Source: Bryoerythrophyllum caledonicum | Lineage: Eukaryota; Streptophyta; Bryopsida; Pottiales; Pottiaceae | Direction: 5' to 3' | NCBI GenBank assembly: GCA_963971425.1 | Contig: OZ020520.1 | Location: 25,562,754-25,626,753, forward strand | Length of the DNA: 64,000 nucleotides | Part shown: positions 2,193 through 64,000 of the stretch, in pieces | Layout: every line of letters begins with the position of its first letter | Numbering within the stretch: the first letter of the stretch is position 1 | Notes under the pieces: generated by a model | The model's input: only the letters and a program-made list of their open reading frames with translations | The model's database searches: none | What the model was told of the DNA's origin: nothing | Program-made: the position numbers and the translations under genes

Positions 2193-2468
2193 AATCTTGA
2201 ATGGTGATTTCTCAATATTGTAACATAGTGTTCTTTAATGTGATCTTGAATACTTTATTGGAGAAATGATTACAAGTTCTTTTGTTCTATGCTATGATAT
2301 ACTCCATTTTCATAATTTTATTATACATTTAATGAGTTTCATGATATAAATATGGAACATGATATGTTAAAAATGGGGAATTTCAAAGAAAAGAAAATGC
2401 AATATAACTTTAAAGTTTATTGCAAATCATTGGAAATCCAATGTATACAAGCACATATAGTGCTACAT

Positions 2469-3308: not shown

Positions 3309-3685
3309 GCTTGAAGAAAGAAAGTTGCAAGTTTGTAAGCTTGCAAGACTCCAAGGCAAGGAGAGAGAGGACTACTACATCTCTCTGCCTTCTTTTATAG
3401 TACTTTTCTGTGTGACTTGTGCATTTTACTTACTCTAATTTTAAGTGTCAGAGGGTTGATGAGGGTAAAACAAAAGTGGGCGGCTGAGGCTGAGAGAGGC
3501 GGCTCATTTTTTTGTGCCTGCCTGACTTTGGCTGAGGTTGAGGCGCACTCTGAACAGAGGTCTGTTCTGGTGAACAGACCCCATCCATGTGAGCCGGCGT
3601 CGCCAGCCAAATCTGCGCATGTGCGTGGGCCTAGAGACGAGAAGCGAAGTTGGCAGAAGAGTTGGTTGCAGTGACGGCGATGGTG
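3309..3685. promoter_or_regulatory. Right flank of Harbinger 1 and upstream region of the pfkB gene
   Basis: Less than 380 bp separates the Myb-like start (-) from the pfkB start (+). The 5' control region of the kinase gene must therefore overlap the end of the Harbinger element. I see no clear TATA box for the kinase. Inverted motifs GGTCTGTTC and GAACAGACC occur at 3561-3580, and ACGCACATGCGC-type sequence near 3610-3625 resembles one near 579-593 on the other side of the element; this may be a decayed terminal repeat. Confidence 0.35.
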
Positions 3686-9336: not shown

Positions 9337-10612
9337 ATGGCGTCCACAACTGAGGAGCAGAGCCATGGTGAGTGGTCTTGACCCATGTGTTGTCTAGCTT
9401 TTGTGTCTTTTCTTTGTTCTTGGATTTGCTGCGTTTTTGCAGAGAAGTGGAGTCGTTTCTACGGTGTGACAGTTTTTTTGATCTTGTTGGTTTGATGATG
9501 TATGTACAGTTGGGGTTAGGTTGATCGGTGTGAGTTTCTGAGATCTTTGTTGGTGATGGGCAGGTGCAGAGCACCCTGGGTTTCTGCAAAAGCTGAAGGA
9601 GAAGCTGCACATCGGTCACACCGACAAGGAGGCGAAGGTGGCAGGAGGAGCTGCGGCTCCGGCAGCTCATGATGCGCCAGTGGTGACCAAGAGCACCACT
9701 GATGATTCCGTTGCCAAGCCAGCTACTACGGATGCTGTTGCGCCGATGAGTACGGACGCTGCAGCAGAGGAGCAACAATACTACGACGCGAGCTCGAGCT
9801 CGACGACGGACATAGCGAGCCTCGCCGGCCACGAATCCGAGCACCACGGCGGCGTGCCCACATTCCTGGCAGCGTTGCCGGACAAGGACGTCCCAGCGCA
9901 AGACGCCTCGGCGCACCCGGAGCTCCACCATGTCGCAGAGTCCAAGGAATTGCAGCAGGGTGAGCACCAGGGGCATGTGCCGGAGGACGCCGTGCCTACA
10001 TTCTTAGCAGCGCTGCCAGACCAGGACATCCCTGCAGTTGACGCTCCGGCACACCCTCAGCTCCACCATGGCACTGAATCCAAGGAATTGGACCAGAGTG
10101 AGCATCACGACGTGGTTCTTGATGGCGGCGTGCCCACATTCATGGCTGCGTTGCCGGACCAGGACATCCCAGCGGAAGACGCGCCCACGCATCAGGAGCT
10201 TCATCATGTCCAGCAGGTTAAGCATGGCGATTCCGAGCAGGGGGAGCATCACCGCGGCGTGCCCACGTTCCTGACTGCGTTGCCAGACCAGGACGTCCCA
10301 GCGCTGGACTCACCCACACACCCTGAGCTTCACCATGTCTCCGAGCAGCAGCACCATGAGCATCACGGCCGCGTGCCGGAGGACGCCGCGCCTACATTCT
10401 TGGCTGCGTTGCCAGACCAGGACATCCCAGCGCTGGACTCACCCACACACCCTGAGCTTCACCATGTCGCCGAGCAGCAGCACCATGAGCATCACGGCCG
10501 CGTGCCGGAGGACGCCGCGCCTACATTCTTGGCTGCGTTGCCAGACCAGGACGTCCCAGCGCTGGACACACCTACACACCCTCAGCTTCATCACGTCGCC
10601 GAGCAGCAGTAG
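9337..10612 (+). CDS. Hydrophilic repeat protein with dehydrin-like N-terminus
   Basis: Exon 1 is 9337-9367 and exon 2 is 9564-10612, giving 359 aa. The N-terminus (MASTTEEQSHG) leads into an amphipathic Lys-rich segment, HPGFLQKLKEKLHIGH, resembling a dehydrin K-segment. An Ala/Thr-rich linker (residues about 40-100) is followed by six copies of a 43-48-aa repeat with core VPTFLAALPDQDIPA and a His-rich tail (HPELHHV, HHEHHGRVPEDA). The last copies are nearly identical in DNA (129-bp period around 10350-10600), so they duplicated recently. The upstream DRE/ABRE motifs support a desiccation/cold-protective (LEA-like) role, but I do not recognise the exact family. The TAG at 10610 interrupts a frame that goes on with further repeat sequence, so this copy is probably truncated. 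Confidence 0.75.
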
Positions 10613-10925
10613 CATGAGTACCACGGCCGCGTGCCGGAGGACGACACGTTTCCATTCTTGGCTGCGTTGCCAGATCAGGACTTGCCACCGCACAAAAAGT
10701 ACCCAGTGACCTGCACCGTGTTGAAGCAGGTTGAGCAACACCCCCCGCAGTTGGATTCTGAGCTGGTGTTCCAGGACGCGCAGCAGGGGGGAGCATCACC
10801 ACAATGGCGTGCCTACATTCTTGGTGGCGTTGCTGGACGAGGAAATCCCTGCGGAGGTCGCGAAGGGCGTGGAGTCCACGCACGATGCGCCCGCTGTGCA
10901 CGAGGTTCTTCGTTCAAGCAGAGAG
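10613..10925 (+). pseudogene. Decayed 3' end of the repeat protein gene
   Basis: After the TAG at 10610-10612 the same frame continues with HEYHGRVPEDD and FPFLAALPDQDLPPHKK, clearly a seventh repeat. A further copy (GVPTFLVALLDEEIPAE, about 10805-10860) lies in another frame. The ancestral protein was therefore longer: one nonsense change (CAG to TAG is the simplest) and at least one frameshift removed the C-terminus. Confidence 0.7.
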
Positions 10926-11970
10926 ACCACTCAGATTGTACTTTACTCGTTTTTTATTCTACAAATGTACAGTTTCACAATATGTAACACTTGTTTCCGG
11001 CTGAAATCTATTCTTCTACATTATAAACGTGATCGTAACTCTATGATGGTTTTGCTTCTTGGCTACCTTATTTGATGTGCTATGAACAAAGCAGAAGTGG
11101 TGGATTGCTTTCCCTGTTAAAGACACAGTTTATGACTTGATTGTCAGCAGTTGCCATACTTATCCCAGAACTCCCTTACTTCTCATTGATGAAACTATTT
11201 TTCGACACAAGTGAAAGAACTTGACTGCAGAAAAAGGGACCAAGTGAAACACCGATCTGATTGCTCATTTTCTAGGAAGACTTCGTTGAAGAGCGAAGCT
11301 GATCGTTCCGGAGGTGTGGAAAGTATCCAACAGGGTCCACACTTTTTGGCATTATCCGTTGCGGAAACTTATTGTCGGCCGTTCATGTTCGATCTCCGAT
11401 GGGAATGGATCCGCATATTCGCCCTTTCAGTGTTTGTGACAAGTGGCACACTCCTTTGTTACTGGGCCTTTCTGGATTTGTTTCAACATTGTGTAGTTCT
11501 ATCCAAGTTTGCAAAGATAGGACGCTGTCTTTCTATGCGTAACACTTCGGCATAACACCTTCACAACAGCAGTAGTTTTAGGAGTAAAATATAGGTGAGC
11601 TTGATGAGTTGCAAGTCTGAAAGTTTTCTTCATTTCTTGTTTTCACCTGTGACAATTCACATCTAGTTGATGATTCGCACGTTTGCAATAGCCGTGTCTA
11701 GATTGCGGTGTAATAAATCACAACATGAGAATACACACAATACCGAAAGCTGATTTATATTCTCATATCATGGAACGCTGGCCAGTCTACATGGAACAGA
11801 ACTGATCAGTGAGCATACATCTGGACGTTTTGGCAGAGAGGAGAAGAATGGAAAACTGACAAAACTGAACAATACAGTAATATCCAACAATCCAATTCAC
11901 CAAAGAAAAACCGGCATATAATCTACATGTATTGCACAACCGGGTTCCTAGCGGCTCTACCCTGCTCTGC
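10926..11970. other. Intergenic region, no gene seen
   Basis: Several short open stretches (for example 11211-11555) show no recognisable domain, codon pattern or splice context. The region holds the 3' UTRs of the flanking genes. Confidence 0.5.
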
Positions 11971-15020: not shown

Positions 15021-15444
15021 TTAGGAGCGCATGGAGAATGCATGCGAATGCATGGGAACTCAAAGGGAACGTAAATAGAACTAATCCTAATTAACCAACT
15101 TCCATCCTAATTAATCCTAATTGGAGCTCTGTTATTGGTTGGGATGCCTACTTTTGGTCCATGTTTACAGGAGGTACCTACTAACGGCTTGTGGCTAACC
15201 ATGGTAGCATTTTTTTTTAATCATAACTAATTCTAATTTCATTGGAAAAAAATGAAATCACTAGGTTGAAATTGTAATCCTGTAGGCTATTACTGAAAAT
15301 AGAACCATTCTTATCTATTCTCTCCATTTAAACATGCTTCACTTGTTGATTACGGGGAGTTACTTGAATTCGGAACGTTCCTGATCTTTCCTACTATCAT
15401 GATTCTAAGAATATTTTTTAAATTCAAAAGTTGATGACATTGTA

Positions 15445-16020
15445 CAGTGGGGTGACACCCAGATTGGCGCCTTGTGCAATTCTAGGGATAGTGTCCACAC
15501 TGTTGCCAACTTTGATACCCTCCCGAGGGCTGAAAATTGTCATTTTACCATGAAATTTTGAACATAGAAACACCTTCATGTTGAAAACATAGGAACCAAA
15601 TTTCAAGGCCAAGAAATTCATACAAAGAATGATATACAAGATTTACCAACAAGGGGTAGATGTAAGAAAAGTTTCACAACTGCCAACTTTGACATCCTTC
15701 CAAGGATTGAAGAATTTTTTTTCCCATGGAATCTTTGGAGTGGAAACATCTTTATGTTAATTACATGTGTGAAAAATTCAAGTTCAAAAGACCCACAAAA
15801 AAACGATATTCCAAATCTACCAAGAGGTGTAGCTATGAGAAACAAAGGGGAAAATTATTTCACAACTTTCAACTTTGACAGCCTCCCTAGGGCTAAGAAC
15901 TTGTTATTTCAACATGAAATTTTTTTCACAAGATCACTGTTATGTTGATAACATGTGTAAAAATTTTCAAGACCAAAACGTATACACAAAAATAATTATT
16001 TAAAATCTACCAACCTGTGT
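15445..16020 (+). repeat. Left long terminal inverted repeat of the mariner element
   Basis: It is complementary to 21310-21865 with scattered differences. Sub-units begin near 15505, 15690 and 15865. Confidence 0.8.
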
Positions 16021-20260: not shown

Positions 20261-21303
20261 AACCTTGCGGGAACAGATTCCCACAATATTTCAGATGGCG
20301 ATTATAGATGAAATTGTGGGCTTATTATAAATATGAGTAAGGGAGAAAGTACTCAAGTTCAAATTGCAGCAACTATAGGCGTTTGCGTTAGAACAGTTCA
20401 GAGGTTGGTGAAAAAATTAAAAGAAGATGGAACTTACAAGCGCAAACCTTGAGGTGGAAGTCACCCTACAAAACTTAGTGATAGGAATGTACTTAGTGCT
20501 TTGCATTACTCAGAAAATAATTGTTGCGTGTCAGATATCAGAGATAGCCAGTATATGTCCTACTCCAGTGTGTGGACGTACCATACAAAGACTCTTTTGT
20601 AGAAGTGGCATTTTCAGTCGAATTGCAGTCAAAAACCTTTTTTGCCACCTCGTCACATATATCAGAGGTTGGCTTTTACTCAGAAGTACCGTGGATAAAG
20701 CGCAGAAGATTAGGACCATATTGCTTGGACAGATGAATCTAACTTTGAAATTGGGAAAAATTTGAGACAACTTGATGTTTACAGAATTGCATATGAGCGT
20801 TATTCATTAAATTGTACAGGTCCTATTTTTAAAGGTAGACGGACTTCCTTCACAATTTGGGGAGTAATTGTTGGAAGGCAAAAGTCAGTACTTGTTTTTA
20901 ATATGCTTAAAAATTGACGTTGTGCAAAGGATTTTGAGGAAGTGGTTTACGAAGAAGAATTATCTCATTTCATGGGTAAAGTTCCACTTGCAGTGCTTAT
21001 GAAAGATGGTGCACTCGTCCATCATAGCAAAATATATGAAGAATGGAGTCAAACACACCTTCTTGAGAAGCTCAATTGGCCTGCAAACTCTCCTAGTTTC
21101 AATCCAATTGAGAACATGTGGAAAATTCTATAAGATGCAATATAACGTGACTTGGCATATCCTAGAAATATAGATGCGTTGAAGATAGTTCTTGAAAGAG
21201 AGTGGAAGTCAATTAGTAATACAAAGCTCCTTCAATCATGTCATTCTATGCCCTCCAGGTCACAAGCAGTAATTGACGCTAATAGTAGACATTCACATTG
21301 GTA
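20260..21303 (+). pseudogene. Decayed Tc1/mariner DD34E transposase
   Basis: Pieces in several frames read in order: a helix-turn-helix part (TQVQIAATIGVCVRTVQRLV), then AWTDESNFEIGKN (first Asp), FTIWGVIVGRQKSVLVFN, VLMKDGALVHHSKIYEEW (second Asp) and LNWPANSPSFNPIENMWK (Glu). Thirty-four residues separate the second Asp from the Glu, as in Tc1-like DD34E enzymes. The usual Asp before LNP is Phe here (SPSFNPIE). Stop codons follow KRKP, the segment near 20755, FNMLKN and NMWKIL. It is non-functional. Confidence 0.85.
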
Positions 21304-21309
21304 GATTTT

Positions 21310-21865
21310 TTTGAACTATTTTTTGTGTATCTTTTGGCCTTGAAAATTTTCACACATCTTATCAACATGAAAATGATCTTGTGGCAAAAATTTCATGTTG
21401 AAATAACAAGTTCTCAGCCCTAGGGAGGCTATCAAAGTTGGAAGTTGTGAAACATTTTTCCCCTTTGTTTCTCACAACTACACCTCTTGGTAGATTTGGA
21501 ATATTATTATTTGGTGGGTCTTTTGGACTTGAATTTTTTCACACCTGTAATTAACATAAAGATGTTTCCACTCCAAAGATTCTATGGGAAAAAAATTCTT
21601 CAATCCTTGGGAGGGTGTCAAAGTTGGCAGTTGTGAAACTTGTTCCAGCTACCTCTTGTTGGTAAATCTTGTATATCATTCTTTGTATGAATTTTTTGGC
21701 TTTGAAAATTTGGTACACATGTTTTCAACATGAAGGTGATTTTATGCCTAAAATTTCATAGTAAAATAACAATTTTTCAGCCCTCGGGAGGGTGTCAAAG
21801 TTGGCAATAGTGTGGACACTATCCCTAGAATTGCACAAGGCGCCAATTTGGGTGTCACCCAAGTG
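21310..21865 (-). repeat. Right long terminal inverted repeat of the mariner element
   Basis: Counterpart of 15445-16020. Sub-units lie near 21420, 21605 and 21790; the outer end is TTGGGTGTCACCCAAGTG, followed by TA. Confidence 0.8.
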
Positions 21866-22039
21866 TACATCGTTCACATAAAAGATGATATACGCTTGAC
21901 ATGTTTGAGGAGATGAGCAACCTTCTTATTGTTGAACTTTGAAGACACATGAGTTTTCTTGAAAGTGATTCCACTTTAGGAAAGAGAGGATGGCAAAGGT
22001 GCTAGAAATGATGAGAATTTTTATTGCACCGGGATAGAC

Positions 22040-22555: not shown

Positions 22556-22565
22556 ACCATGGCTT
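22556..22565 (+). repeat. Target-site duplication (left) of the 14.5 kb element
   Basis: ACCATGGCTT, identical to 37081-37090. Ten bases fits the 8-11 bp duplications made by Mutator-like elements. Confidence 0.85.
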
Positions 22566-22620
22566 GAGCGACGCTATCTTGTGAGCGGTGAGCGGTGAGC
22601 GGCGAGCCGTGAGCAGAAAA
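22566..22620 (+). repeat. Left terminal inverted repeat of the Mutator-like element
   Basis: The perfect core at 22573-22607 pairs with 37039-37073. Outside the core, seven terminal bases pair imperfectly. Internal heptads are GTGAGCG x3, then GCGAGC. Confidence 0.85.
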
Positions 22621-23332
22621 TTGTCAGAAAACGGGAAAAAAAAGTTGCTTTTTTCCAGATTTTTTTGATTTTCACGGAAATTATCGATAAGTCTCTCAAA
22701 CTTTGCTTTGAAAATTCGAAATTTTTTCTAAACTTAGAAGGTACCCTATAGCCGTGGAATCACTAACCATATCCATTTATTTGTGATTCCCTTTCGTCGC
22801 TCCTGTCCACGACTATCACCTCTCAGTTATATTTCCATTTATTAAAAGATTATAAATACAGAGGTCACAATCAAATAAATAAATCGATTAAAATTCGACA
22901 GAACTTGCAGTGATTGTGAAGTCCAACAGTATGGGATGTGGAGTCATATAATTTCAGAGAGATAGCTATAGTACACAACGTCAGGAACAAATAACATTCT
23001 AATGTTCTAATATTTGGTAATAAACTATCGCCCAATGGTTTAAGATACCCCATCTCTCCACATGGAGTTTGCATGGTTCAAAATTGAAGATGTTAAATGC
23101 TGCTAATACATGACATATATTCTGCATGTTGCTACCATAACACCTCTCAAGTTGATTTAAATAAAGGTTCACAAAAAATTATACATTGTAACATAAGTAG
23201 AAGTACGAGTGAGTAATTCACTCATGTATTGACTACTAGCCATAGTCGTGACAAGCAAAACCAATTTCACATGTTGAAATACGAGCTCCCGGAAAATACA
23301 AATACTAATTAGAAGATACTTCATTGCGATTT
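22621..23332. other. Subterminal non-coding region of the Mutator-like element
   Basis: AT-rich, with no coding region. It presumably holds the 3' UTR and terminator of the transposase gene on the minus strand. Confidence 0.5.
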
Positions 23333-26300
23333 TCATGCTCGCTCGGCAATATTAGCAAGCTCTAGAATGCGCATGACCTCGTTAAAGCTGTAGCTTGGGG
23401 CATGCATGAATAAGTCCTCCTTGTAGTCCATCTTACATAAATAGCGAAGGATGTAGTACACATGCTTGCAATACTTCCATTGCCCTTTCTTCCCCAACGC
23501 CTCCACTGACATCTTCAGGAAATCTGGACATGTACACGCCGGATAGTCTGTGAAGGTTATGCAATACGACTTCTCCTTCTCCGTTAGAAGGGTGATGACG
23601 CATCCAAATCCCGGATACGGCATGGCGATGACATTCGTAACGTAGCAATTCTTCATCAACGCTGCGCTTGACCACTTGTTTCGGTGCTCCACGGAAGGCA
23701 CATCTGTAGTTCGGCGAATCTGGTAGCCGTTCCGGAAAGTATGGTACGAGTCCGGATTCTCTGGAAGCGGGAAGTTAGATCGCGGAAGAGGCATGTTCAA
23801 AGTTACCTGGAATTGTCTACGAGGCGACAAAGCACCACATTGCTCTAACTGAAAACCTGCTTCTTCTAACGATAAGACTTCTTGCATGGTTAGATTCGTC
23901 CCAAGCTTTACTGGCCATGTCATTGGAACTGATGGCCAGTCTACTACAAACGGTTTCTTCGAACCCATCACGCATCGGCTAATATCATCAGCACAAAACC
24001 AAAACTCCACAGAAGTATTTCGGGGCGACCTGAATTCCTTCTTCTTGCCAATATATGTTGGGGCAGGTGTTCCCTGACTCCCACGCCCAACTCTCGCATC
24101 ACACCTCTCACCGGTGTGAGCTTGCAATGCTTGGCACTTTCGGTGAGAGGTCTTCGGAAGCCGACCAATGTGCCACTTGGAGGGATCACAATCCGATTCT
24201 AATACTGCTGTTGTGTGACGGACCCCGGAACCTTCTCCATTTAGGGCCTCTTCGATCCGCGCCCTAGTCACTCTTCTGCCATCTCGTGGAATCGAATAGT
24301 TCACCGTATCGGATCGATGAGAGTCGTGGCTGGACCCGGGTGGCATGTCAAGTTTGCGTTTAGTGGACCCAAAAACCTCCGCTCCTTCGAGCCCGCCCGT
24401 CTTTGTCAAGAGATCCTCCTCCCCCGGGAAACTCCGCACTGCTTCTGCAATGAATCTTGGATCGCCAGAACGTTGGGCAGATCTTAATCGAAGCGTACCT
24501 TTGTCTGGACCTTTTCCGGAGGTCCCTCCATTGAGCCATGCCCGGTACGAAGTGATTTGCATGAAAGCCCGAATTAGGTCATCCACGGTAGCCGCATATA
24601 AACATGTCATGGTATTCCCGGACTGTTGAAGCCAGCGGTTGTGGACTGTCTCCGCAAGATTACATGATGGCATGTCAGCTCGCTCGTCGAGTGTGAGGTC
24701 CTAATATCATACACGAAATGTTATTACTACTTTCACAACTAACATTTCAATGATTTGAATATTGAGAAAAGGCATTGCGTGAACTTACTAGTTGCATTGC
24801 TCCACCCCATTGTCTATATCGGAAATGCCAAAAAGCCATGCAATCTTCTAGGGCACGGCGCCCGCTTTCGGTAGTGGCTCCAGATGAAATCCACCATCCA
24901 CGAATGACGTTGTATTGTGCTTCGGCCTCTTCTTGTGATCTCGCGTTCTTCCATATCCTGCAAAGTGCAATGTGTTGATCTTGGAATGCTGGTAGAATGC
25001 TCTTCGTGGTGGCTCGTTGAAGGCACTTGGTCCAATGGAATAAACAAGTCCGTTCTTTGTTTTCGATCGGGACGTCCTTGTCGCCATTGCCATACACTCG
25101 CCGAACAGCGTGCCAATTCGCTCCGGCACTATCAGCCATGAACCCTTTGAAGTTCGTGTTCTCCACTCCGTGATTCAATATCGTATCGTTCAGGTTCTCC
25201 CAAAACAACTGTTGTGCTTGAGCATCCTCCGATTGCATATCACACATAGCTATCGTCATAACTTTACAATACTTACTGTCGTATACATGGCATGCCATGG
25301 TAGTCCAGTCTTTAACCCGCTTGACGTGATCAAACATCAACCAACAGTCTTGGAGGTCTCCACCAGGTTGCATCCGCCGAACAAGATCAACACCGCTACC
25401 TGGACGATCAACAGACATTTTAAATACAAACACCTTACCTTTAGATTGGCCCGGGAACTTGTTCTCGTGGATGAAGACAAACTTGGATGACTCCTTCAGC
25501 TCCATGATGTTGTCCATGACACCCTTCCCACCACTGTAAAAGCGCTTGCATGTCGACACCAAATTCCTTATGTTAGGGGATGATTAAGTCTGGAACTGAT
25601 CCAAGACAGCATCCATCGATGCTCCTTCAAGGTTCGATGATCCCGACCCGGGACGGATCAAATAATCAGAAAGGAAATTCTTACTTGCAGACATAATGAT
25701 AGCAGAATTAGTGGCATTGGGTGTGCGCTCGACTTCCTTCGCAACGCACTCATGCATCAAGTCCATTGCGGTTTGGTCAACTCCATTCGAGATGGGATGC
25801 TGGTGAATACCAAGATGAATGGCAAGTCGGGTGCGCTCCGAATCGGTACACGTCACATAATAAATACGTGCATCACATAGAGCTAGACAAATAGGCGGGG
25901 TTTGACAAACCTTACAAGCCAAGGTTGATTTTAAGTGTGGAGCGCCCTTGACAGGCCAGGGGGAAATGGCGAGACCACTCCACTCCGTTTGATTAGTACG
26001 ACCTTCATTCCTGCACTTATAGTCACAATGAAGGTTGGAACACTGAAGATGGCCAGTACAAGATGACTTCCGGTATGTCAGGCCAAAATCATTCATGATA
26101 TTTGTCGTCATTGTCCTGCACCATGTGTGACCATCGTGTTGCTTGCTCATACCATCCAGTCCTCCTCCAAACTGAGTTGGTATGCCTTCTGGAAGTGGAG
26201 GCAACTCAAACATCACGTCCCCGTTGTAAGACGGAGGCAAATACTTCACACGTGAAACCTCTATGCTGTCGAAATCCACGTGTGTCAACTCAGAACGGGA

Positions 26301-26885
26301 TCCCTTTCTAGAACAGGTCCTGCGAACATATGGAATGATACTGCGGATACTTTTAGATTTCGGTGGGACAGGCGGTTTCCTAAAGGACAGAGACGGAGAC
26401 ATGTGTGACCTACTTGGGGTATGGATAGACGCATCGGGACGGATAGAGTCCTGTGACTTAAAGGTGTACGAAGATTCCCCCAAGTTCACATCGGAGAGGT
26501 CCTCGTCAGTGTCACTTAGAAGCTGCACGCTTGGGTTAGACCGAGTGCCCAAACCGGGCACGAGTATCGTTTCACCGGAATCGGTAAGAGGGACCATCAC
26601 GGCACACGACGCATTAGCGGACGTTTGAGTATCCCTAACACCATATACTTTAAAAGAACCACGACACAGATTCCACAGAAAACCGAAATCGTCTCGATCT
26701 TTCACTTGGTATATAGAATGTTCTAATACTCCTGAGCTATCAAAGACCTCTTGTTCAACGTGAACGGTTCCAATTCTAAACCCAAAGCGACTACTGAGGA
26801 CTGCCTCGGGAACATTCACAGAGCCATTTTCACCAACGGACATTACAAGTGGAACTCCACCATTCTGAGATGTGAGTGACGCCAT
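23333..26885 (-). pseudogene. Mutator-like transposase with SWIM zinc finger (one in-frame stop)
   Basis: Exon 1 is 26885-24789 and exon 2 is 24700-23333 (GT-AG, phase 0), about 1,154 codons from ATG 26885. A Cys/His N-terminal domain around residues 260-370 (CSNLHCDYKCR, CKVCQTPPICLALCD, HLGIHQHP) resembles the WRKY/GCM1-FLYWCH fingers of this family. The DDE-fold core has WLMFDHVKRV (first Asp), FMADSAGANWHAV (second Asp) and CLFHWTKCLQR. The C-terminus has a SWIM finger CTCPDF...YCKHVYYILRYLC. A single TAA (25584-25586) sits between DQFQT and SSPNIRNLV in an otherwise continuous frame. The protein cuts and pastes its element in the nucleus. With only one defect, this is a recently inactivated copy or an assembly error. 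Confidence 0.82.
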
Positions 26886-27806
26886 AGTCAAGCGCTCTCT
26901 ACAGCAAAGGAAATGGAATGTTTGCAGATAATGATTGCGGATATATATTGAACGAAATCAATTGCTTGCGAAAAAATCTGAGTGAAGGTGTCCAATTACG
27001 GAAACGCATCGTGATCATAAATCCCTGAAACATTTAGTGTCTTCTATCATATGTCCATGCACGTTCCCTGACATAACTTTATTAAATTTGGAAACATTTA
27101 TAAATTTATGAGAAAATTTTAAAGGTTGATCCAAGTAAGGCGGAGTGTACCATACAGTTGGCATTCGACGTGTATAGTCGTGGTTCACTGAATTATCAGT
27201 AACACCCAAATATAAGAGGGACACCCAAATATAAGAGGGACACCCAAATATAAGAGGTATGACAGATGACTAGTTGAACGCGAGGACAATACTTTGTCAA
27301 GTAGTAGAAATAGAGAGGACGTAGTTTCTCTATTACGGCGGAATAATGCATTCTTAGTATGGCATTAACACAATCTGACACATCTTTAATGAACACGACA
27401 AATTCGAAGCCAAGCTAGAGGTCATGATCAGAGTGAGCAATTTACAAATACATATGTTCTAGATGTATTCTCAAAGCCTCCAAAGTAGGTTTAAGATATT
27501 ATTAACCCGGTGTTGTCGATTTTCACCAAATACAATAGCTAAATCGAGTTAAGTGAAATGCTTGTGACTACAAAAGCATTTAACAGAGATGCAATTGCCA
27601 GAATTATCTTAGAGTTTGAAAATTCCATTGAAACAGACAACATGTGATAAAATCGATAAAGATCTTGAGGCAACCCGTTGTCAACTGCTTAGATTAGTAA
27701 AAGAGCACCCTTAACGGGTCGCTGAGTTTCAACTTGTATCCATATCATAGGAACGACACTCGTGTGAAAATGTTCAATGTGACGCAACCAGTTTGACATA
27801 CAGAGG
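26886..27806. promoter_or_regulatory. Shared divergent promoter region inside the Mutator-like element
   Basis: About 0.9 kb lies between the two head-to-head starts. It contains three perfect or near-perfect copies of a 19-bp unit, ACACCCAAATATAAGAGGG, at 27202-27258. Each copy includes an AAATATAAG TATA-like stretch. The arrangement suggests co-expression of the transposase and the accessory gene. Confidence 0.5.
27202..27258 (+). repeat. 19-bp tandem repeat x3 in the divergent promoter
   Basis: The unit ACACCCAAATATAAGAGGG occurs three times head to tail; the last copy differs at the final base. Confidence 0.85.
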
Positions 27807-29339
27807 ATGACAAGCAAGGGTGGACTGAAGAGAAGAACAACACACTACACAAATCCTAAGCAGAGGAGGTCACGAACGAATCGTGAACAGCTGAAGGCCT
27901 GTGTTTCTGAGGAGAATCGTGAGGAACTGACATCTGAGGGGCCCGTTCGATTCAGGAAGTTGTCAAGTATTCTGCAAGCAGAAGAGACGAAGCATTATCG
28001 TGTCGGAGTAAGTGTTTCATATTCATATTCCAGTTGGTTTCCTATAATGCAATTTTGGATAGGTCATACTTACACTCGGTATGTTTAGTCGTCTAGCTAC
28101 TTCATGCAGCTGCGAAGTGAAAGGGGGGATGAAGAGTCTATACAAGTTATCATGACGAGTGATTCCAGAGGACCTCATGCGTCGGGAAGCTCGATGCATG
28201 GGGGTAAGGATCCAGACGTTGTTGTTGACGACAATGACTGTCAAAGCATAGACTCTAGTATGGAAACAAGAAGCCGGGTAAATTTATCTCGATCTACACG
28301 AACTAGGAACCGATCCTCGTCTAGAGCGACCATTGGTCGATCACGGACCGATCGAGGAAGCGCGGGGGAAAGTGGATCGATATTGTTGGGGGAGGGACGG
28401 GCCCAAACAAAACAGGTTCGATATCATCATACCGCTTAAACATTATGCCGAGTACCTGTGGTTTCATAAATTTGTATTTGTATTTGCAACTAAATTCTGA
28501 GTTATGATTTCGAGAAAATATGATATTAAACCTCGCATTTTAGTAGAAAAGGGGAGATTGTAGGATTTATTATGGGGTAAACTAGGACATCTGGATAATC
28601 TCCGTGGATTACCCCGAGCTGAACTGTGGACCCCTAGTGAGAATACCTTCTTCATTTTGGATGCGAGCACGAGCCCTTCCAGTTTTGAAGGGTCATTAAA
28701 GGGTCACTCGATCAGAGCGCTCATAAACTAGTTCGTCGTTGCCTAGTTCGTGAGCTCATGATTGAATGCGGATTTTCAGTTGGGGTATGGTAAGATTCTT
28801 GTGATTCAATATCCGCCATAGAATCTGAATTTGCGAAGACCTTCGGCATTAGGTTTTATGCACGATTGCTTATGCATTAGAAGATTCTAATCAACACCTA
28901 GTCCAATTTGATTGCAGACGGCAGGTGGCATTAACAGAGAAGGAACTGGTCAGACTCGAGACGAGGGGGAGCGAGTGAGTCCGGTATGTTCACAACACAT
29001 TTCACCAAATCGATTCCATTCATAATCTCAACTAATTATTCCATGTCTGTACTCTAATGGAGATGAACATTGTCAAGACTTACCCTAAACCCTGGTCTTT
29101 GGATTGTGAAATGAATAATCTCTATTGCCGAAAACCCAATATGCCCAACAGACATTTTGTAAAATCAAATCCTCTATATCCTACTTCGCGATTTCAGATG
29201 GGTAACTGAGCATTTTATGTGTTGGGGATTAATTTCGTGTGTGAATTTGGAATGTTGTGCGAAGGGGCGCACCGGAGCTGGGTTTACAAGCTATCGGTCA
29301 GACGACACTTCGGTAGACAAGAACCGATTGGCACTGCTG
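27807..29339 (+). CDS. Probable N-terminal exons of the ParB/methyltransferase-like gene
   Basis: Four phase-0 exons with GT-AG borders can be chained: 27807-28007, 28110-28415, 28918-28983 and 29265-29339. The last has a weak acceptor, AAG|GGG. Together they give about 216 residues: a basic start (KRRTTHYTNPKQRRSRTNRE), a Ser/Arg-rich, probably disordered middle (RSTRTRNRSSSRATIGRSRT), and no recognised domain. The chain reaches phase 0, matching the acceptor at 31849/31850 across the palindrome-rich intron, so the whole gene could encode about 1,390 aa. These exons might instead form a separate small gene. Their basic composition would suit nuclear entry and DNA contact. Confidence 0.5.
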
Positions 29340-31849
29340 GTGAGTAGACTAATCCATCGTAAACGATTGCGGGTATTCTTCTTGCCGGTTATATTGCCTT
29401 AGCAATCACTTGCAGCCCTAAGTGCTTGTTTTTTCTCTGTAACTTCACTTTGTTCGTGTAGAAATCTTACTTGGTGAAATCGTCTCGACCTAATCTGGCT
29501 AGATTGTAATGTCCCTCGGATCCGAGAGAATGTTAGTAGTCTGTTGATGTGTAATTTATTTGGCTTTAAGTTGCAAAATTCGTGAGATCATCAGCATCAT
29601 ATTATGTGTACATGACTCGATTAGGAGAGGATTAGTATTTCATATATGACGAGTCCAAGTTGGACAAGGTCGGCCTTACTGGATTCATGAGCTCGGATTC
29701 ATTTGTGTACACTATGCAGTCGACAATGCTGGATATGTTCTTCTGTATATGACCTAATGCTTTCCTTAGACTGGAGTCGTGAAAGAGGTCATTCAAAATT
29801 ATCGTGATGTAAATTGTGTTTGGTAGATGGTCCCTCGGATCCGAGGAACATGTGCACGACTGAAATCTGTGCTTGATTTTATTTTTTCACGAAACTCTGT
29901 TCGTGAGCAGACACTGCTCAATGGAAAACCAAACCGAATCAGACTTGACTGTTTGGTCCCTCGGATCCGAGGGACAGATTGTCGTTTGATTTTGTGTTTT
30001 TTTTTTGCTTGAACTTGCTAACTTTGTGAGATCGTCCGCATGTTATTCTGCATGCATTTTAGGTTTCCAAGAGGATTTGATTCTCATGTATGTCGAGTCC
30101 ATGATTGATTAGTTTTGCCTGTCAGGAATGATGAGCTCCGCTTTCTCTTTTTACCTGTGGATTGGATAATGCTGGATGAGTTTGTGTGTATATGATCTCA
30201 TGCATTCGTGAGACTCGAGTCAATGTAGAGTTTATTCACAAAGTTGCAATCGTTTAATGAGAACTGCGGATGGTGGCTCGGATCCCAGGTACATTAGGAA
30301 CACTGAAATCTGAGTCTGTTTATTTTCGGTGATGTGACCTTGTTTGTGGAGAAAACTTGCTTGTGGATTACCAAACCGAATCAGCTCGAGTGTATGGTCC
30401 CTCGGATCCGAGGGACAGTTGGTAGTCTGCTTTTGTGTTTTTTTTTTTGCTGGAACTTGCTTACTTCGCGAGATCATCTGCATGTAATGCTGCATGCATT
30501 GCTGGTTTGCTTGAGGATTTGTATGTCTTGTATATCGAGTCCATGATTGATTAGTTTTGCCTTTCAGGATTGATGAGCTTTGCTTTCTCTTTTTACCTGT
30601 GGATTGGATATTGCTGGATGAGTTTATGCGTACATGATCTCATGCATTCGTGAGACTCGAGTCAATGTAGAGTATATTCACAAAGTTGCAATCGTTTAAT
30701 GAGAACTGTGGATGGTCCCTCGGATCCGAGGCACAGTAGGAAGACTGAAATCTGAGTATGTTTATTTTCGGTGACTTCACATTGTTTGTGTAGAAATCTG
30801 TCTTGTCGAAATACCAAACCGAATCAGACTAGTTTGTATGGTCCCTCGGATCCGAGGGACAGTTCGTAGTTTGCTTTTGTGTTTTTTTTATCCTTTGGAT
30901 TTGGATTCGATTAAGGTGTATGTCAACGTTGTAATGATGCTTGTGCGTCCAAGAGTAGTGAGTCGTGAGTTCTTGTTTAAAGTTGTTTGCTGAAATTGGT
31001 TTCTCGGATACTATGGCAGTTGGTGGTCACTTGTAAAGTTACATTTTTATGTTTATGTGAACATCGTGAGCTTGTGAGCAAACATCGTGAGTTCGTGAGA
31101 ATGTTATTCAGGATTCCATACTGGTTTGCAAGAAGACTTCAGCATAAAATTTGAAGAGTCTTTGATGGATAATTGTTGAAATGTCGGATTCATGAGTCTA
31201 GTTTTTCTTTCTTATTCTATGGCCTCGATTATGTTTGATGCATTCGTTTTAATGTGCTTATGAATTTCAAAAGTATTGAGCGACGTGGTAGACAGATATT
31301 CTGAAACTTGATTGCTTCAACTTGCAAACTTCCTGATTTCGTGGGCATGATGTTCTTGATGCGTTACTTGATTACTTGAGGAATAGTACTTTCAAAATGA
31401 ATTGTTCATGATGGATAAGTCCGGCCTTGCTGCATTCATGATCACGGTTTATGTTAATCGACCCTGTGGACTCGATAATGCTTGTTGTGTTCATTGATAT
31501 GAGCGTATGCTGTTTGTAGTAATGAGTAGTTGTGAGTAGTTATTCACAAAATTCATGATGAATGTTGTGTACTGAAATTGGTCCCTCGGATCCGAGGAAC
31601 AGTTGTCAGGCTCGATTTTGAGTTTGTTGTTGTGGACATTGTTCAAATTGCAATCTTGCTTGGTAAATGATTAGATATCACAAGGTGAGAGTCTAATGAC
31701 AAATGCGGATCCGAGGGAAAGTTGGCAGTCTTAATTTTTTTTGTTTGTATCAATGTCAAGCTCATTCATGCTGAAATCAAATTACTCTAGCTTGTGTCTT
31801 CAACTTCTATTTCTACAACTTACTCATGTTGTTGGATGGTTGCGCTCAG
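29340..31849 (+). repeat. Palindrome-bearing tandem repeat array in the large intron
   Basis: A unit of about 443 bp is repeated around 29600-30900, with more diverged copies to 31730. Blocks such as CATGATTGATTAGTTTTGCC and GTGGATTGGATA(A/T)TGCTGGA recur. Each well-kept unit holds two copies of the palindrome GTCCCTCGGATCCGAGGGAC about 125 bp apart. The array fills the intron just before the ParB exon. Confidence 0.85.
29511..31720. promoter_or_regulatory. Set of 20-bp palindromic sites
   Basis: Perfect copies of GTCCCTCGGATCCGAGGGAC lie at 29956-29975, 30397-30416 and 30841-30860. One-mismatch copies lie at 29830-29849, 30715-30734 and 31581-31600. Degenerate copies lie at 29511-29530, 30273-30292, about 30999-31018 and about 31704-31720. 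The palindrome is better conserved than the sequence around it, which suggests a protein-binding or modification site. The function is unproven. Confidence 0.6.
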
Positions 31850-34800
31850 ATGGCATCACCGCAAGGAGAGATGGTCACGCCGACGGTGGACCTGGATACA
31901 CCAACTGTGGACACGAGGACGTCATCTGAATCTTTGGACTCTCCACATGAGGCCTCGAACTTGGTCCTTCAAGTGGTTCATCAAGTTGTACCGGCGATTG
32001 GTGTAGATCCCGGGTTGGACACTACGGAGCTGTCTTTGAGGAAGTCCATTTGTGGAACTTCCTATGATGTGCTCCAGAAGTCTCACTATCCATCAATTGG
32101 GGAGTTGCACATCCCACTCTGCCGAATGTTGCCAATGACGGAGGTGCGCATTCCAGTCAAGCCCGACATAGAGAAGCTCAAGAGCGAGTTTGTCAAAGGC
32201 TACCGCCCTGGTTCAGCATGTTTCTATGTTGCATTGAGAAACTTCTCCATGGTAGAACGGGAAGTTCTTCCTGAGGAACGTGCGGGTTGGTCAGACCTTT
32301 GGAGGGTGGAGGACCAGAAATTCGAAGCTTTGATTGCGAGTAGACCAGAGTTACAGAGTCTTTCTGATCGCTATTTTTTTGTGTGGGATGGCAACCACCG
32401 CCACCTTGCATGGATGGATGTCATATCCACCATGCATCGAAACGATTGTGCTTTCCATACTCCAGTTCGGGCAGTTGTATTAGAGCCCACTTTGGGAAAC
32501 CGCCATATACTTCTGAACGCCATGACAGATTGGAACAAGTGAGTATTTTTTTTGACTCCTCTTGACTGTTTGTTATGATTTCTATTATTTCAATTTTCAA
32601 GATATATTCCTGTAGTTGATAGTGCGTTTATATTTATTATCGCTCAGGCAGAAAGACTCGGACCATGTGACACAACAATTGTCACATGATGTGAAGAGAG
32701 TTCAGCATTTTGGATTGCTGGACTTCGATCAGCTGAAGGGTCTGATTAGTGAAGAGGATCACGATGCTAGTGTGGCGGAGTGGGCTAGGAAGGGGACCAA
32801 AAAGTGGTACCATATGACCTTCGATTCATTTTTGAAGTTACTCTATGAGGTATGTTAGGATACGTTTTGGAATGAGTTTGTATGCTGTATGCTCTTATGT
32901 ATGGCTCTGAGTATGTGTTACATAAGTTATTGTATGTTTTATGGCAAATTAACTTATACTCTTTTGAATGATTTCATGTGTAGCGTGAGCTCATTGCAGC
33001 TCAAGAAGACTGCATTCGAACTTATCGTGACACACTAGTGACCGGTGTTGGGGCTGATCGTGTTGGGAGCTCGGCGGAGTTGGTCACTCTTTGCTCTGAA
33101 GCGGTGCAAAAGAAAAAGACTCAATGTGGCACATTACTCACTCGACTCCTTGCCATTGCTGACCCTCGTAATGGTGAAGAGTTCTTCAAAGAGGTATTCA
33201 TATTTGCAATTTCTTGAATTCGTTCATTCAATATCATTGAATTTATTTACTTGTTTTCATTGACTCATTTTTTGTTATCCTCTGATTTAGGTTCTTCATC
33301 ATTATGATGTTTATCAAAACAAGCCTGAAATTACAACAGAAAAGCTGCAACTTCTTTGTACGTCGAAGGTTTCAGCGAGGTTCAAAGGCAGATGGATGCG
33401 TTGGTGGAACTTGTCGAAAGAGGGCAGGGATGAATACAATTTCCCTAAACCTCCATGTTCGGAGATTAACCTCAAGCCCTGGCTCGACGTGGCTTCATTT
33501 TGGGCAGGGGTAAGTCATATAACATAAACTAATTGCCAAATTGTTATATAATCACTTCTAAGTTTTGTTTTTTAACATTTTGATCTTTTTGTGTAGCTTG
33601 AAGAGGAGGCTGAGAAGTTATTTCTGAAGGTCGTGAAGGAAGAAAATATCACCATTAGGATGGAGGGTCTCCCTAACCCGGTATTGGACATTGGCTCATG
33701 GATTGAAGCCAACTCACTCACGTTCTGGAAGAAGGCGTTTAAGAACCATTTTAGTGGAGCAAAGCCTTTTGTGAAGTCTGAAGAGTTTCCCAAGCAGCCA
33801 GAGACAACTCAAAGTGTCAAGAGAGCGGTGTTTCGATACTTCTGGCGAGAGCTCGTTGCCAACGGTGCATTGCAGCCTCGGGAGCTGCCTATCCGGCTGA
33901 GGAAGTGGTGTGATACCACTGTGAGCGCTGAGTGTATCTTCACAGAGTCTCAATTGCGCCGTTTCACTCGGCATGACTTGGCTCAGTGCCCTTGGTACTT
34001 AGAGCTTCATGGATTAGTTCCAACTCCAGGTGATGAGGTGGAGCTTCGGGAGTCCTGTGATGCCTTGGCAACACATTCTGGGTCGGGTCCTGCTTTACAT
34101 GCTTCAACTCCATTCCAGGTGGAGCCTGAGCTTGAGCTCTCTGAGAAGGCCAAGGAGAGGGCAGTACAGAAGGCCGCCAAGATGGCGGCTAGAGAAGCTG
34201 AGCGAGAAGCAGCACGATTGGAGAAGGAGACTGCAAGAAAGGAGAAGAAAGAGACTCGTATAAGGAACAAGGAATTGGCAGCTCTCGTCGCGAAGGAGGG
34301 GCCCGAGAAGTTGTTGTCTGCAGTTGGTCTTGGATCTATCTCACAGCCGGCACCCGTATTGACTACATTTGGCGCTTCTCCATCCGCCAGCAGCCGCCCA
34401 GGAGCATTCATTGCAAAGCCAGCTCAGATCATTTATTCGATTCCTGTAGTGGAGCAGACGGAGTCCACTGTAGCTGTTGAGGTAATCAATACCAGCGCCT
34501 ACTCTATCTTTACTGATTATGATTCAGTTACAGCTGAGGATGACGTTCCGCCAGTTTGGAGGGATATTGCACAGTGGTTGATGGCCAATGGCGGATCGAA
34601 GCCGCGTTACATGAAGGGGGAGTTGACTGAGGATGGTTTGGCGGATATGTTCATATTTGACGTTCCGGAGGACTTGCCAGTTCCTGGCATTCAGGGTGGT
34701 ACTGTGATTCCACCATGGAACTCACTACCCACAGTGCCGACCCCCAAGGGTCGGAGAGAATCATTGTGGATTCGGTTTAACTTCGAGTTGGCTGAGTCAT

Positions 34801-35967
34801 TTCTTCGTGATGGTGGAGCTATCATTGTGTTCTATCCAGATTCCAAGTTCATTTCAAATGAACTGGTTTCCTGGTCTCAGTGGTCGGGATTTGACGAAGA
34901 GGCGAAGTGGTTCGCCATCAATGGACTTCCTCTCTTCTCTGATGGTCGCCCCGGCCGCGTACACAAGACTTTCATGGTCAAGTGTTTTGTTCGTAAGAGG
35001 GATCCTCCAATTCCATTTGTCTTCAATGACAGAGTGGAGCTCTTGGCGGATGGGATTGAACTTTCTTCGAACGGTCATCTGACCAATTACATCACCCAGG
35101 AGTCACTGACGGTGAGGGCCTCCACCGGGATGCCATGGCGAGGAGCCAGGGAGAAGTCGCAGAATCTATTGGAGGCTCTTATTGATCTTTGCACAAAGGA
35201 GGATGAGATCGTCATGGACCTTACCGCTTCTACGGGTATATAAATTTTATACTTGCATTTTGTGGTTTGATTATCAAACCATGATTCTAATTTCATACTG
35301 TTTGTGTTCTATACTTTTTGCAGGTGCATCTATTCAGGCTTGCAAAGCCCTCAAGCGTCATATTCTTGCCTTGGAGGCAGACAAGGACTTGGTAGACGAG
35401 GTGCTTCAACCCATGATTCCACAGACGGTGGAGGTTACTTCTGCGATTGTTGAGCCCTTGGAGCAGCCTTCTCTCAAGCGCCCTTTGGAGCTTGGTGATG
35501 ATGAACCAGAGATTAAGACTGCGCCTAAGAGAACTTGTAAGTAAGTTCTCTTCCATTATTTGTTTTTTTTTAATCTCTCTTCTATCATTCGTATTTTACT
35601 AATCCAAATTTGTTGCAGACGGTTCTCGACGTCGTTGATGGCTTCTCTGTCAACACCTCCCGTTGGAGTGCTGGCTCGCTTGGCATGGAAGGTTGTGAGT
35701 CCGGAGCAGCAACATATTTTGCCTGGATATGCCGAAGCTGCTGCCATTGCATCCGTAGCGCAGCCGTCGCCTTCACGACGTCCACCGACTGCTCGATCCG
35801 GCTCTGGAGCAAAGGATTTTATGGATGACGAGGCTGAGGAGGGTAGTATTGATTCCGATAGTGGTTCTCAGAGCAGTATGCCGTATTTACCTGATATGAG
35901 GCTTTGGATTTATGGATACATATCACCCTTACATGTCTTATTTGATTCTTCATTTCAATCACATTAA
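31850..35967 (+). CDS. ParB-like domain fused to a DNA methyltransferase-like domain
   Basis: Seven exons: 31850-32538, 32648-32849, 32984-33193, 33291-33509, 33597-35235, 35324-35540, 35619-35967. All are GT-AG, phases match, and the frame is open throughout: 1,174 aa. Residues about 80-190 look like a ParB/sulfiredoxin-type domain (GELHIPLCRMLPMTEVRIPV, FFVWDGNHRHLAW, matching the D-G-x-H-R box). Residues about 610-675 are a highly charged helix. Residues about 780-1010 resemble permuted (beta-class) N4-cytosine/N6-adenine methyltransferases: a possible motif IV (FDVPED at 794-799, or IPPWN at 811-815, both degenerate against DPPW/SPPW), FLRDGGAIIVFYP, then KSQNLLEALIDL and a motif-I-like VMDLTASTGASIQACKAL (979 on) ending LALEADKD. 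The tail is Ser/acid-rich. Such fusions are known in bacteria and phages; here the gene has introns and sits in a transposon. Catalytic activity is uncertain. Confidence 0.7.
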
Positions 35968-37038
35968 TGTTTGTACTCTAGTTAGATAATCTAATAGATT
36001 AAAATGATACTTCACTGATGGATTATAATCAATTGTAATAATGTGTTTTTGAAATTAGAAATATACCTTTATCACACCATGAATTGTTTACAAAGTTTCA
36101 AATATTTTTAGAGGGTCCATCACTATCATTCTCTCCATTCGGCACCCTGAACCTTCTCTCAAAAATTTCCATAATCCCATATCAATTGGAGAGGTTGGGG
36201 AGGTGTACTATATAATGGCTGAGTACCACCAATACTTTCAGTGACAAGCCCGGATGGCTTGGTCATCTCAAGTTGCAATTGATACTGCCGTGGCAGCCTT
36301 CGGGTGCTAGTGCCGGGTATACAAGGACCTTGAGAGACCCGCTCCAATCCGCTTGGTGTAGTTTAGATACATGGTAGGCACAGGGTAGGCGCGGTTCTAG
36401 CACAACAATTTTTGTGTTTTTGTTTTGATGTTTTTTTTTTTCATTCGTCTTTTAAACCGGCTTAGCATGTTCACTTCATACATTTCGCTTCATGCACCTT
36501 GATATTTATTAGAATATTGCTACATATTTGACTCAATTAGAATAGTAATACACATCCGAGAGAATTCTTCTACTGCAATTCGCAGAGTTATTCAAGCGAT
36601 GTTTATCCATGGACTTATGATATTTGCAGTAATACAATTTAGATAGTTGAATAGATGTACTTTATCTCCATATTTTAAATTCTATTGTATAAGAAAATAA
36701 AAGGATTATAGATGTACTTTTCCCCCGTTAATGAAATATAAAATCGTTATTATTTGGAATACAAGTTTGCATTGTAATATATGTTATATTATCTCTTATC
36801 AAATTACTTATAGTTGTAATTTTTTGCCAAAATTCTAATAATGGTGCCACGGCTATAGGTGCCTCTATTCAATAAACTATAAATTAAAGCGATTGCAGGT
36901 CAAGAATTTCTCTTATTTTTTTATTTTTTTTAAAAAAAAATTCTAAGCACAATCCACCTACACTCACGGCAATAGGTGTTCTTTTTTAATTTCACAACAA
37001 AAAAAATGGTAAAAATTGTCATGAATTCAGTGCTCGCC
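35968..37038. other. Right subterminal region of the Mutator-like element
   Basis: AT-rich 3' flank of the accessory gene. A small open stretch at 36159-36347 (-) shows nothing recognisable. The last 45 bp lead into the terminal repeat. Confidence 0.5.
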
Positions 37039-37080
37039 GCTCGCCGCTCACCGCTCACCGCTCACAAGATAGCATTCCTG
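37025..37080 (-). repeat. Right terminal inverted repeat of the Mutator-like element
   Basis: The perfect core at 37039-37073 is the reverse complement of 22573-22607; the outermost seven bases are ATTCCTG. Confidence 0.85.
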
Positions 37081-37090
37081 ACCATGGCTT
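37081..37090 (+). repeat. Target-site duplication (right) of the 14.5 kb element
   Basis: ACCATGGCTT, identical to 22556-22565. Confidence 0.85.
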
Positions 37091-63861: not shown

Positions 63862-63875
63862 CCCACGTGTGCCCT

Positions 63876-64000
63876 TTAGAAATCCGGAAAGTTCGTAGAA
63901 GTTGGTAGAGGGATCTCTCTGAGTTGAAGCCGATGCCTCTCATTGTCAGGCCTCACCGTTAAGAACTGCACTGACCTCTTTCCATCAACACTTCGAATCC
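63876..64000 (-). CDS. Tail of the upstream gypsy ORF (partial)
   Basis: In a different frame from pol, the minus strand is open from the right edge to TAA at 63876-63878. It reads SVDGKRSVQFLTVRPDNERH and ends TSTNFPDF, 14 bp before the pol ATG. This would be the end of gag or protease, with pol starting separately or by frameshift. Only 41 codons are visible. Confidence 0.4.
   Translation of the reverse strand, partial: IRSVDGKRSVQFLTVRPDNERHRLQLREIPLPTSTNFPDF

Follow-up and report, generated by a model that had tools for sequence, protein, structure and literature searches.

The element and its genes

The DNA analysed here (the window) is a stretch of 64,000 nucleotides from the moss Bryoerythrophyllum caledonicum (GCA_963971425.1, contig OZ020520.1, 25,562,754-25,626,753, forward strand). 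It holds a Mutator-like transposon of 14.5 kb (22566-37080) with inverted termini, a target duplication of 10 bp, and a transposase gene that diverges from a second, intron-containing gene. The duplication is exact (ACCATGGCTT; left copy 22556-22565, right copy 37081-37090), and its sequence occurs only twice in the window. The left terminal repeat (22566-22620, plus strand) carries the core GCTATCTTGTGAGCGG followed by TGAGCGG repeats. Over 43 bp it is a 95% inverted match to 37031-37073, in the right terminal repeat (37031-37080, minus strand).

Related copies exist elsewhere in the genome. Here, W denotes the window element, and A97 and B59 are copies 97% and 59% identical to it in exon 5 of the second gene. 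The terminal core is found at both ends of A97, B59 and B2; the left end of B3 carries it with a single mismatch. Target duplications of 9-10 bp flank three of the six elements examined: a script found that of W, and visual inspection of the flanks those of A97 and B59. They were not seen for B2 and B3, and a left end was not found for C63. That last copy is decayed: it has five degenerate palindrome sites, no transposase match and no left terminus. A match to exon 1 was not found in B3.

The transposase gene (23333-26957, minus strand) consists of three open pieces (26957-25584, 25583-24747 and 24700-23333), with an in-frame stop at 25584-25586. B59 is open at that site; the A97 transposase has stops and a gap. 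Where stretches could be matched, A97 and B59 are 92-97% identical to the window copy. With the pieces scanned separately, one of the three matched Transposase_mut, at an E of 0.053 that falls short of the cut-off, and the window was absent from the 138 matches to MULE (PF10551) obtained when 150 of 384 candidates were scored. An earlier reading of this DNA, made from the sequence only, had assigned the gene to a Mutator-like transposon. The termini and the duplications support this assignment and show the element to be mobile, with the weak Transposase_mut match beside them.

The same reading had proposed that seven exons at 31850-35967 splice into an open frame of 1,174 amino acids, and this model holds, with one terminal stop and six introns of 78-134 bp, each GT..AG. 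The exons, all on the plus strand, lie at 31850-32538, 32648-32849, 32984-33193, 33291-33509, 33597-35235, 35324-35540 and 35619-35967. The longest is open for 546 codons, while 500 first-order Markov simulations of that exon gave open frames of 109 codons on average and 277 at most. GT-AG dinucleotides stand at all six homologous positions in A97, and at all six in B59. In the model for B2 the third intron is misplaced (AA-AG), and the comparisons drew on B2 only through exon 5 and its methyltransferase piece. One correction concerns the C-terminus. The last 27 residues of the window copy, with their stop at 35967, are unlike the family, and 68 bp present in A97 near position 35875 are missing; in A97 and B59 the gene product ends in an acidic tail.

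Purifying selection acts on exon 5. The median dN/dS is 0.13 across 36 pairs of nine stop-free copies, and 0.11 in the methyltransferase part; B59 against B2 gives 0.12, and W against B59 is saturated. Exon 5 is present in at least 79 copies in the genome (79 scored among 3,286 candidates) and exon 1 in at least 150 (150 of 150 scored were confirmed, from 1,844 candidates).

A methyltransferase-like protein with a ParB-like beginning

A methyltransferase relationship had been suggested for the C-terminal part of the protein, which begins near 34539 in exon 5 and continues into exon 6. Sequence profiles bear this out, with PF01555 above its cut-off (26.7 bits) in two subfamilies. As domain pieces, the window copy scores 29.1 bits (1.2e-6) and the 59%-identical copy 31.4 bits (2.4e-7); the whole window protein scores 24.3 bits, below the cut-off. 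Further matches are to a PHROG methyltransferase (7.7e-6), to DpnA in the PDB (0.003) and to the NCBIfam profile for CcrM (3.6e-5, far under that profile's curated cut-off). Judged by these profiles, the domain is a relative of the beta-class amino-methyltransferases. The motifs first quoted for it are present: GGAIIVFYP at 34812-34838, KSQNLLEAL at 35154-35180, DLTASTG (motif I) across intron 5, and ALEAD, within the motif II sequence ALEADKD, in exon 6.

The bacterial and phage enzymes CcrM and DpnA share the motif order IV-X-I with the moss protein, as well as profile similarity. The moss protein differs from them in its degenerate motifs IV and I, in its long N-terminal extension, and in being encoded by a spliced nuclear gene. 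A large protein database returned no homologue for the full-length query (E up to 0.001; 8,000 candidates scored), for a two-sequence alignment (7,998 candidates scored) or for residues 755-1030 (E up to 0.01). A six-frame scan of the genome for PF01555-type domains gave eight matches, and the split domain of the transposon family was not among them. Single-sequence AlphaFold models of pieces of the window protein, made without an alignment, reached pLDDT values of 41 and 36.

The N-terminal part had been read as ParB-like. What stands of this claim is a D-G-N-H-R box (as WDGNHRH in exon 1) and the order of conserved blocks in a region (residues ~84-229) shared by families A, B, D and E. Pfam ParB_N (PF02195) has no match in the window protein or in families B, D and E, and none in the whole genome at E 0.1, while 11 of 14 control genomes were positive. 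A PHROG family annotated as a ParB-like partition protein (1033) matched two of five family members at E 0.35, and unrelated proteins matched the region as well or better: eL24 in the PDB at 0.008, PaRep2b at 0.028 and a CoA-transferase at 0.12. Its single-sequence model has a pLDDT of 41. The search for phage relatives of exon 1 gave a single match, a DNA ligase gene at E 2. P1 Dmt, considered as a ParB fusion, was rejected, as Pfam shows no ParB domain in it.

With bacterial ParB-parS the moss system shares the DGxHR-type box and, by analogy, palindromic sites close to the gene. It differs in giving no match to a ParB profile and in having its sites in repeated arrays.

Palindrome arrays 5' of the gene

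The noncoding stretch between the two divergent genes, 5' of both, holds an array of palindromes that is a new observation, absent from the earlier list of features. Motif comparison gives eight sites and a remnant. The first, second, sixth and eighth (29512-29529, 29831-29848, 30716-30733 and 31582-31599) have one mismatch to TCCCTCGGATCCGAGGGA. The third, fifth and seventh (29957-29974, 30398-30415 and 30842-30859) are perfect, the third being part of the 20-bp palindrome GTCCCTCGGATCCGAGGGAC. The fourth (30274-30291) is degenerate, with four mismatches, and the remnant (31701-31718) has five, its right half being intact.

Arrays in families A, B, D and E have in common the core CGGATCCG, which contains GATC and GGATCC, and their arms are symmetric and family-specific. 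Between D and E, four of five inner arm positions differ and pairing is retained; between W and B59 the arms differ by a single base pair, T/A versus A/T next to CCC. Perfect palindromes reach 40 bp in family D and 36 bp in E. Conservation peaks at the centre in A, B, D and E; in family F the centre is imperfect in most sites. Exact 16-mers of three site types occur 616, 237 and 357 times in the genome, and their reversed controls not once. For the first type, about 0.02 occurrences are expected.

These sites accompany the gene. Among 23 scored loci with the ParB-like exon on chromosome C1, 12 are accompanied by sites less than 5 kb away on the 5' side, and 0 of the 23 by sites at that distance on the 3' side (random mean 0.05); the other 11 show no exact match to any of the three site types used. 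Each of the 12 carries one type only (seven A/B, five D), and the type follows the similarity of exon 1: at loci with A/B sites it matches the W or B59 query at 75-98% identity, at those with D sites it matches B59 at 62-65%. Conversely, of 47 listed site clusters, defined by script with one 10-kb rule, 23 have a scored ParB-like exon within 5 kb on the side expected for a 5' array, and none has one on the opposite side. The remaining 24, mostly single sites, are not tied to a scored copy; among clusters of at least three sites this holds for two of 20. Around one of these two (C1:7202669) no match was found in about 2.5 kb on either side.

What the protein may do

The reading we hold to be somewhat probable is that of a self-recognising accessory system, comparable to VANC, in which a protein with a ParB-like N-terminus and a beta-class amino-methyltransferase-like C-terminus, encoded divergently from the transposase, recognises the array 5' of its own gene. 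It would probably bind the palindromes as a symmetric dimer. Once bound, it may mark or shield its own element and sister copies carrying matching sites, and this might relieve silencing or tune expression, giving VANC-like self-recognition built from other parts. Three points in this reading are inferred: binding of the sites by the accessory protein and not by transposase or host factor, a methylating activity that persists, and anti-silencing as the result.

As to the second of these points, it is not far short of an even chance that the protein is instead a catalytically dead methyltransferase whose sole role is to bind DNA, as a scaffold in anti-silencing or in autoregulation. The canonical motif IV, (D/S/N)PP(Y/F/W), is not found. 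Its equivalent, FDVPE (34656-34670, plus strand; DLPY or DLPF in phage relatives), is invariant in 24 of 24 copies of the same length; B59 and B2 also have DVPE, and C63 has DVPM. In DVPE, E takes the place of the aromatic residue. In motif I, DLTASTG stands where DPFxGxG is expected, with S for the first glycine, and DLNASTG is kept in a paralogue whose identity over this part is about 46%. These two motifs make catalysis uncertain. Against a dead enzyme, motif IV keeps its D and P, motif II keeps its acidic residue, the domain is strongly constrained, and some amino-methyltransferases tolerate variation at the last residue of motif IV.

A bolder form of the favoured reading can be held only tentatively. 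Here, protein and arrays would diversify together, with CGGATCCG as the fixed core and the arms as a family code, and each family would evade the 5mC silencing of the host by placing 4mC or 6mA on its kin alone.

Rather unlikely, in our estimate, is that the palindromes serve the transposase, or a host factor at a bidirectional promoter, and are unrelated to the accessory protein. The array does sit between two divergent genes, and the transposase region is conserved too. Yet W and B59, 92-97% identical in the transposase, are only 59% identical in exon 5 and have slightly different arms, an argument that is weak because the difference is a single base pair. Further, in two copies with internal deletions the sites still adjoin the ParB-like exon.

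Long perfect palindromes could, of course, also form hairpins, in RNA or as cruciforms, perhaps for small RNAs or replication and with no specific protein. We consider this improbable, since conservation is highest at the centre, where the free loop would lie, and the arms around it vary among families; a conserved centre would fit a dimer site better than a loop. Mutator-like elements frequently capture genes, but a functionless host or bacterial passenger, as in Pack-MULEs, is very improbable, being already disfavoured by the observed selection (dN/dS 0.13), by the conserved introns and by the amplification of several subfamilies together with gene and array.

Relation to known systems

The gene had been proposed as a new combination. 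In part it is not, as transposon proteins joining ParB and methyltransferase have been published for algae (PMC12477816); the Mutator-like plant setting of such an accessory gene appears new. In the available text of that paper, Sola1-1_Ec32 of Ectocarpus encodes an accessory protein with ParB-like and N4/N6 DNA methyltransferase parts, and similar proteins are cited from green and red algal transposons. Compared by description, the moss gene resembles it in a length of about 1,100 amino acids, in an amino-methyltransferase domain behind a region described as ParB-like (in the moss, by its motif), in lying on the strand opposite the transposase, and in its place in a giant DNA transposon. The moss element differs in being Mutator-like and not Sola1, in its 9-10 bp duplications, in its at least 150 copies of exon 1 and in its palindrome arrays. 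For the algal proteins, binding and modification of the element that encodes them has been suggested, with a target that the available text leaves unnamed; the string "palindrom" does not occur in the paper.

VANC of the Arabidopsis VANDAL elements is, as far as the accessible descriptions go, likewise the product of a second gene in a Mutator-like element, with noncoding tandem-repeat targets that differ among related families (PMC5735166, PMC10398659). Its domains are given as DUF1985/DUF287 (PMC5735166); a Pfam scan of the full moss protein shows PF01555 only. The VANC21 motif, YAGTATTAC/T as described there, is short and non-palindromic, unlike the moss sites. Transposon-borne DNA methyltransferases are also described in the available part of PMC5890265, for dinoflagellates and charophytes, but those are cytosine (C5) enzymes in retrotransposons.

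In the moss, the sequence itself points to the likely targets. There are more than a thousand of them, and they are not alike in sister families, which makes binding specificity and methylation directly testable. Were the protein anti-silencing, such systems would have evolved at least twice in Mutator-like elements, once with VANC and once with the moss gene. And if protein and arrays do diversify together, the families would offer a ready-made series of proteins, each with its matching site.

The accessory gene

The sequence-only reading of this DNA placed a gene of seven exons (31850-35967) in a plant transposon; the element spans 22566-37080 (~14.5 kb), and the gene is here called its accessory gene. 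Splicing the window sequence bears out that model to the base, with the frame open for 1,174 amino acids. Exon 5 has 546 open codons, whereas the longest frame in 500 simulations had 277, and each of the six introns has a GT-AG counterpart at the homologous position in two other copies of the element, A97 and B59 (97% and 59% identical to the window copy in exon 5). Exon 5 is also under purifying selection, with a median dN/dS of 0.13 (range 0.09-0.27; 36 pairs, nine stop-free copies) in a sample biased to good copies, since the 30 fetched were the best of 79 scored among 3,286 candidates. Together, the openness of exon 5, the recurrent introns and the purifying selection exclude a chance frame.

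Six of the 30 copies, being of other length, were dropped, and at least one stop interrupts 15 of the remaining 24. Among decayed exon 5 copies genome-wide, TAG is seemingly the commonest internal stop, as an untallied impression that fits C-to-T decay at CAG. The final 27 residues are peculiar to the window copy, which lacks 68 bp near 35875 relative to A97.

Palindrome arrays

The space between the divergent genes of the window element holds one remnant and eight sites resembling TCCCTCGGATCCGAGGGA; three of the eight are perfect palindromes of 20 bp. B59 has seven perfect ACCCTCGGATCCGAGGGT sites, in DNA that gives no blastn match to the window over the array stretch. Other subfamilies of the accessory gene have arms of their own. 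Families D and E, selected from the exon 1 list as having no site of the type common to families A and B (A/B) nearby among listed matches, each carry an array on the 5' side of exon 1. The D array consists of five palindromes (34-40 bp, arm ...GAAAATGGCTTTCGGA), the E array of eight (26-36 bp, arm ...GAAAACCACCTTCGGA). In family F, TTTCGGRYCCGAAA occurs within a repeat of 64 bp; seven of the nine sites found there are imperfect at the centre. Among three further copies, there are two sites in B2 and five, all degenerate, in C63; the few in B3 resemble the E and F types. In four stretches tested, palindromes of at least 18 bp number 3 to 8 per stretch; the Markov model gives means between 0 and 0.04.

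Across the genome (437 Mb, 894 contigs), exact 16-mers number 616 for A/B, 237 for E and 357 for D; the reversed-palindrome controls give none for any of the three. Linkage was scored for the first 50 sites listed per type (150 in all), with clusters joined within 10 kb, against same-chromosome matches to accessory exon 1 (here, the "ParB exon"). Since each search scored just the 150 best of ~1,840 exon 1 candidates, a ParB exon may still be present beside an unlinked cluster. Of the clusters formed by the listed sites, 11 of 19 for A/B, 5 of 9 for E and 7 of 19 for D are on the 5' side of a ParB exon at a distance of up to 5 kb; on the 3' side, at up to 5 kb, there are 0 of 47. The 23 linked clusters contain 107 of the 150 listed sites, and 18 of the 20 clusters with at least three sites are linked. 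Viewed from the gene, 12 of 23 scored ParB loci on chromosome C1 have sites within 5 kb 5' and none within 5 kb 3'; the random mean is 0.05. Each C1 locus with sites has a single site type, and this type tracks exon 1 similarity.

Three arrays were picked by palindrome alone. Two (in stretches L049 and L050) adjoin a ParB exon in internally deleted copies; these derivatives keep the palindrome array, the ParB exons and the methyltransferase end, and have lost the middle. The third, at C1:7202669, has no match in ~2.5 kb on each side (L057, L058). In L057 there is a marginal match (E 0.56) to the C-terminal stretch of the accessory protein, perhaps the remnant of a deleted copy. Elsewhere, nine E-type palindromes lie irregularly over 7.5 kb at C2:21382254-21389734, unlinked to a scored ParB copy.

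The encoded protein

The methyltransferase-like assignment holds for the domain piece, from exon 5 on, where PF01555 scores 29.1 bits in the window copy and 31.4 in B59, both over the cut-off of 26.7; the whole window protein scores 24.3 against the same cut-off. In alignment, motif IV reads FDVPE here versus DLPY/DLPF in phage enzymes, and motif I DLTASTG versus DNCMGSG. FDVPE is unchanged in 24 of 24 same-length copies, and D-L-N-A-S-T-G is kept in a paralogue ~46% identical over the motif stretch; thus, both changes look old and maintained, in a putative enzyme that may be altered or dead. The paralogue, a distant methyltransferase-like one at C3:24900-25900 (L061) with its exon unsplit and the ~46% identity in motifs X-I-II, is one of eight genome matches to PF01555 over cut-off.

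The ParB-like label goes back to a motif. The D-G-N-H-R box is present and the N-terminal region is conserved (63-73% identity to A among families A, B, D and E), but ParB profiles do not match it in the window copy, in families B, D and E, or in the whole genome. The sole ParB hint is a weak match to PHROG 1033, "ParB-like partition protein" (E 0.35, two of five members), and the region also draws unrelated weak profile matches. Structure prediction of protein pieces from single sequence gave low-confidence models only.

The transposon and its surroundings

The inverted termini at 22566 and 37080 have a common GCTATCTTGTGAGCGG followed by TGAGCGG repeats, and ACCATGGCTT flanks the element on both sides. 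Read by eye, A97 and B59 have duplications at equivalent places (GGGTGGAAG and GTGAAAATAG); none was seen at the ends of B2 and B3, and no left end was found for C63. Three minus-strand pieces make up the transposase, which in this copy has an in-frame stop where B59 stays open; A97 has stops and a gap. The sole Pfam match of the transposase, to Transposase_mut, is weak, so that the earlier "Mutator-like" now draws mostly on the termini and the length of the duplication. The transposase pieces of the window copy and B59 are 92-97% identical, versus 59% for exon 5, which indicates that the transposase and accessory halves have separate histories.

As for the host, the NAC family, known only from plants and their algal kin, is matched in this genome by 31 pieces, taken to represent roughly 17-18 genes, and in 0 of 14 prokaryote control genomes. 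The host is therefore probably a land plant, perhaps one without seeds.

Other features lie nearby. An inverted repeat of ~570 bp (15441-16013 and 21298-21869; 90% identical, arms internally repetitive) encloses ~5.3 kb and is perhaps another terminal-inverted-repeat element. A PIF/Harbinger-like DDE_Tnp_4 transposase at 837-3371 sits beside a Myb/SANT-like ORF on the opposite strand. An open frame of repeated units (FLAALPDQD..HPELHH) at 9557-10987 corresponds to DNA direct repeats at 9850-10691, and a minus-strand retroelement polyprotein frame, gypsy-like by eye, is open for 1,212 amino acids at 60301-63939.

Interpretation

Among the matches listed, the Ectocarpus paper (PMC12477816) is the only direct precedent for a transposon protein combining ParB and methyltransferase; neither a Mutator-like or plant example nor any mention of palindrome arrays turned up among those matches, whose coverage leaves out most subscription literature. 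VANC of the VANDAL elements offers a likeness in organisation: according to PMC5735166, its targets form tandem repeats, and related elements have different ones.

That the arrays sit beside the gene, keep one core and change their arms symmetrically suggests a binder that is sequence-specific and symmetric, and that would be encoded by the element or diversify along with it. The strongest candidate for binding the palindromes is the accessory protein: the arrays adjoin its gene, and similarly laid-out proteins of algae have been proposed to bind and modify the transposon that carries them (PMC12477816). We infer that the accessory protein may bind, catalyse and act against silencing.
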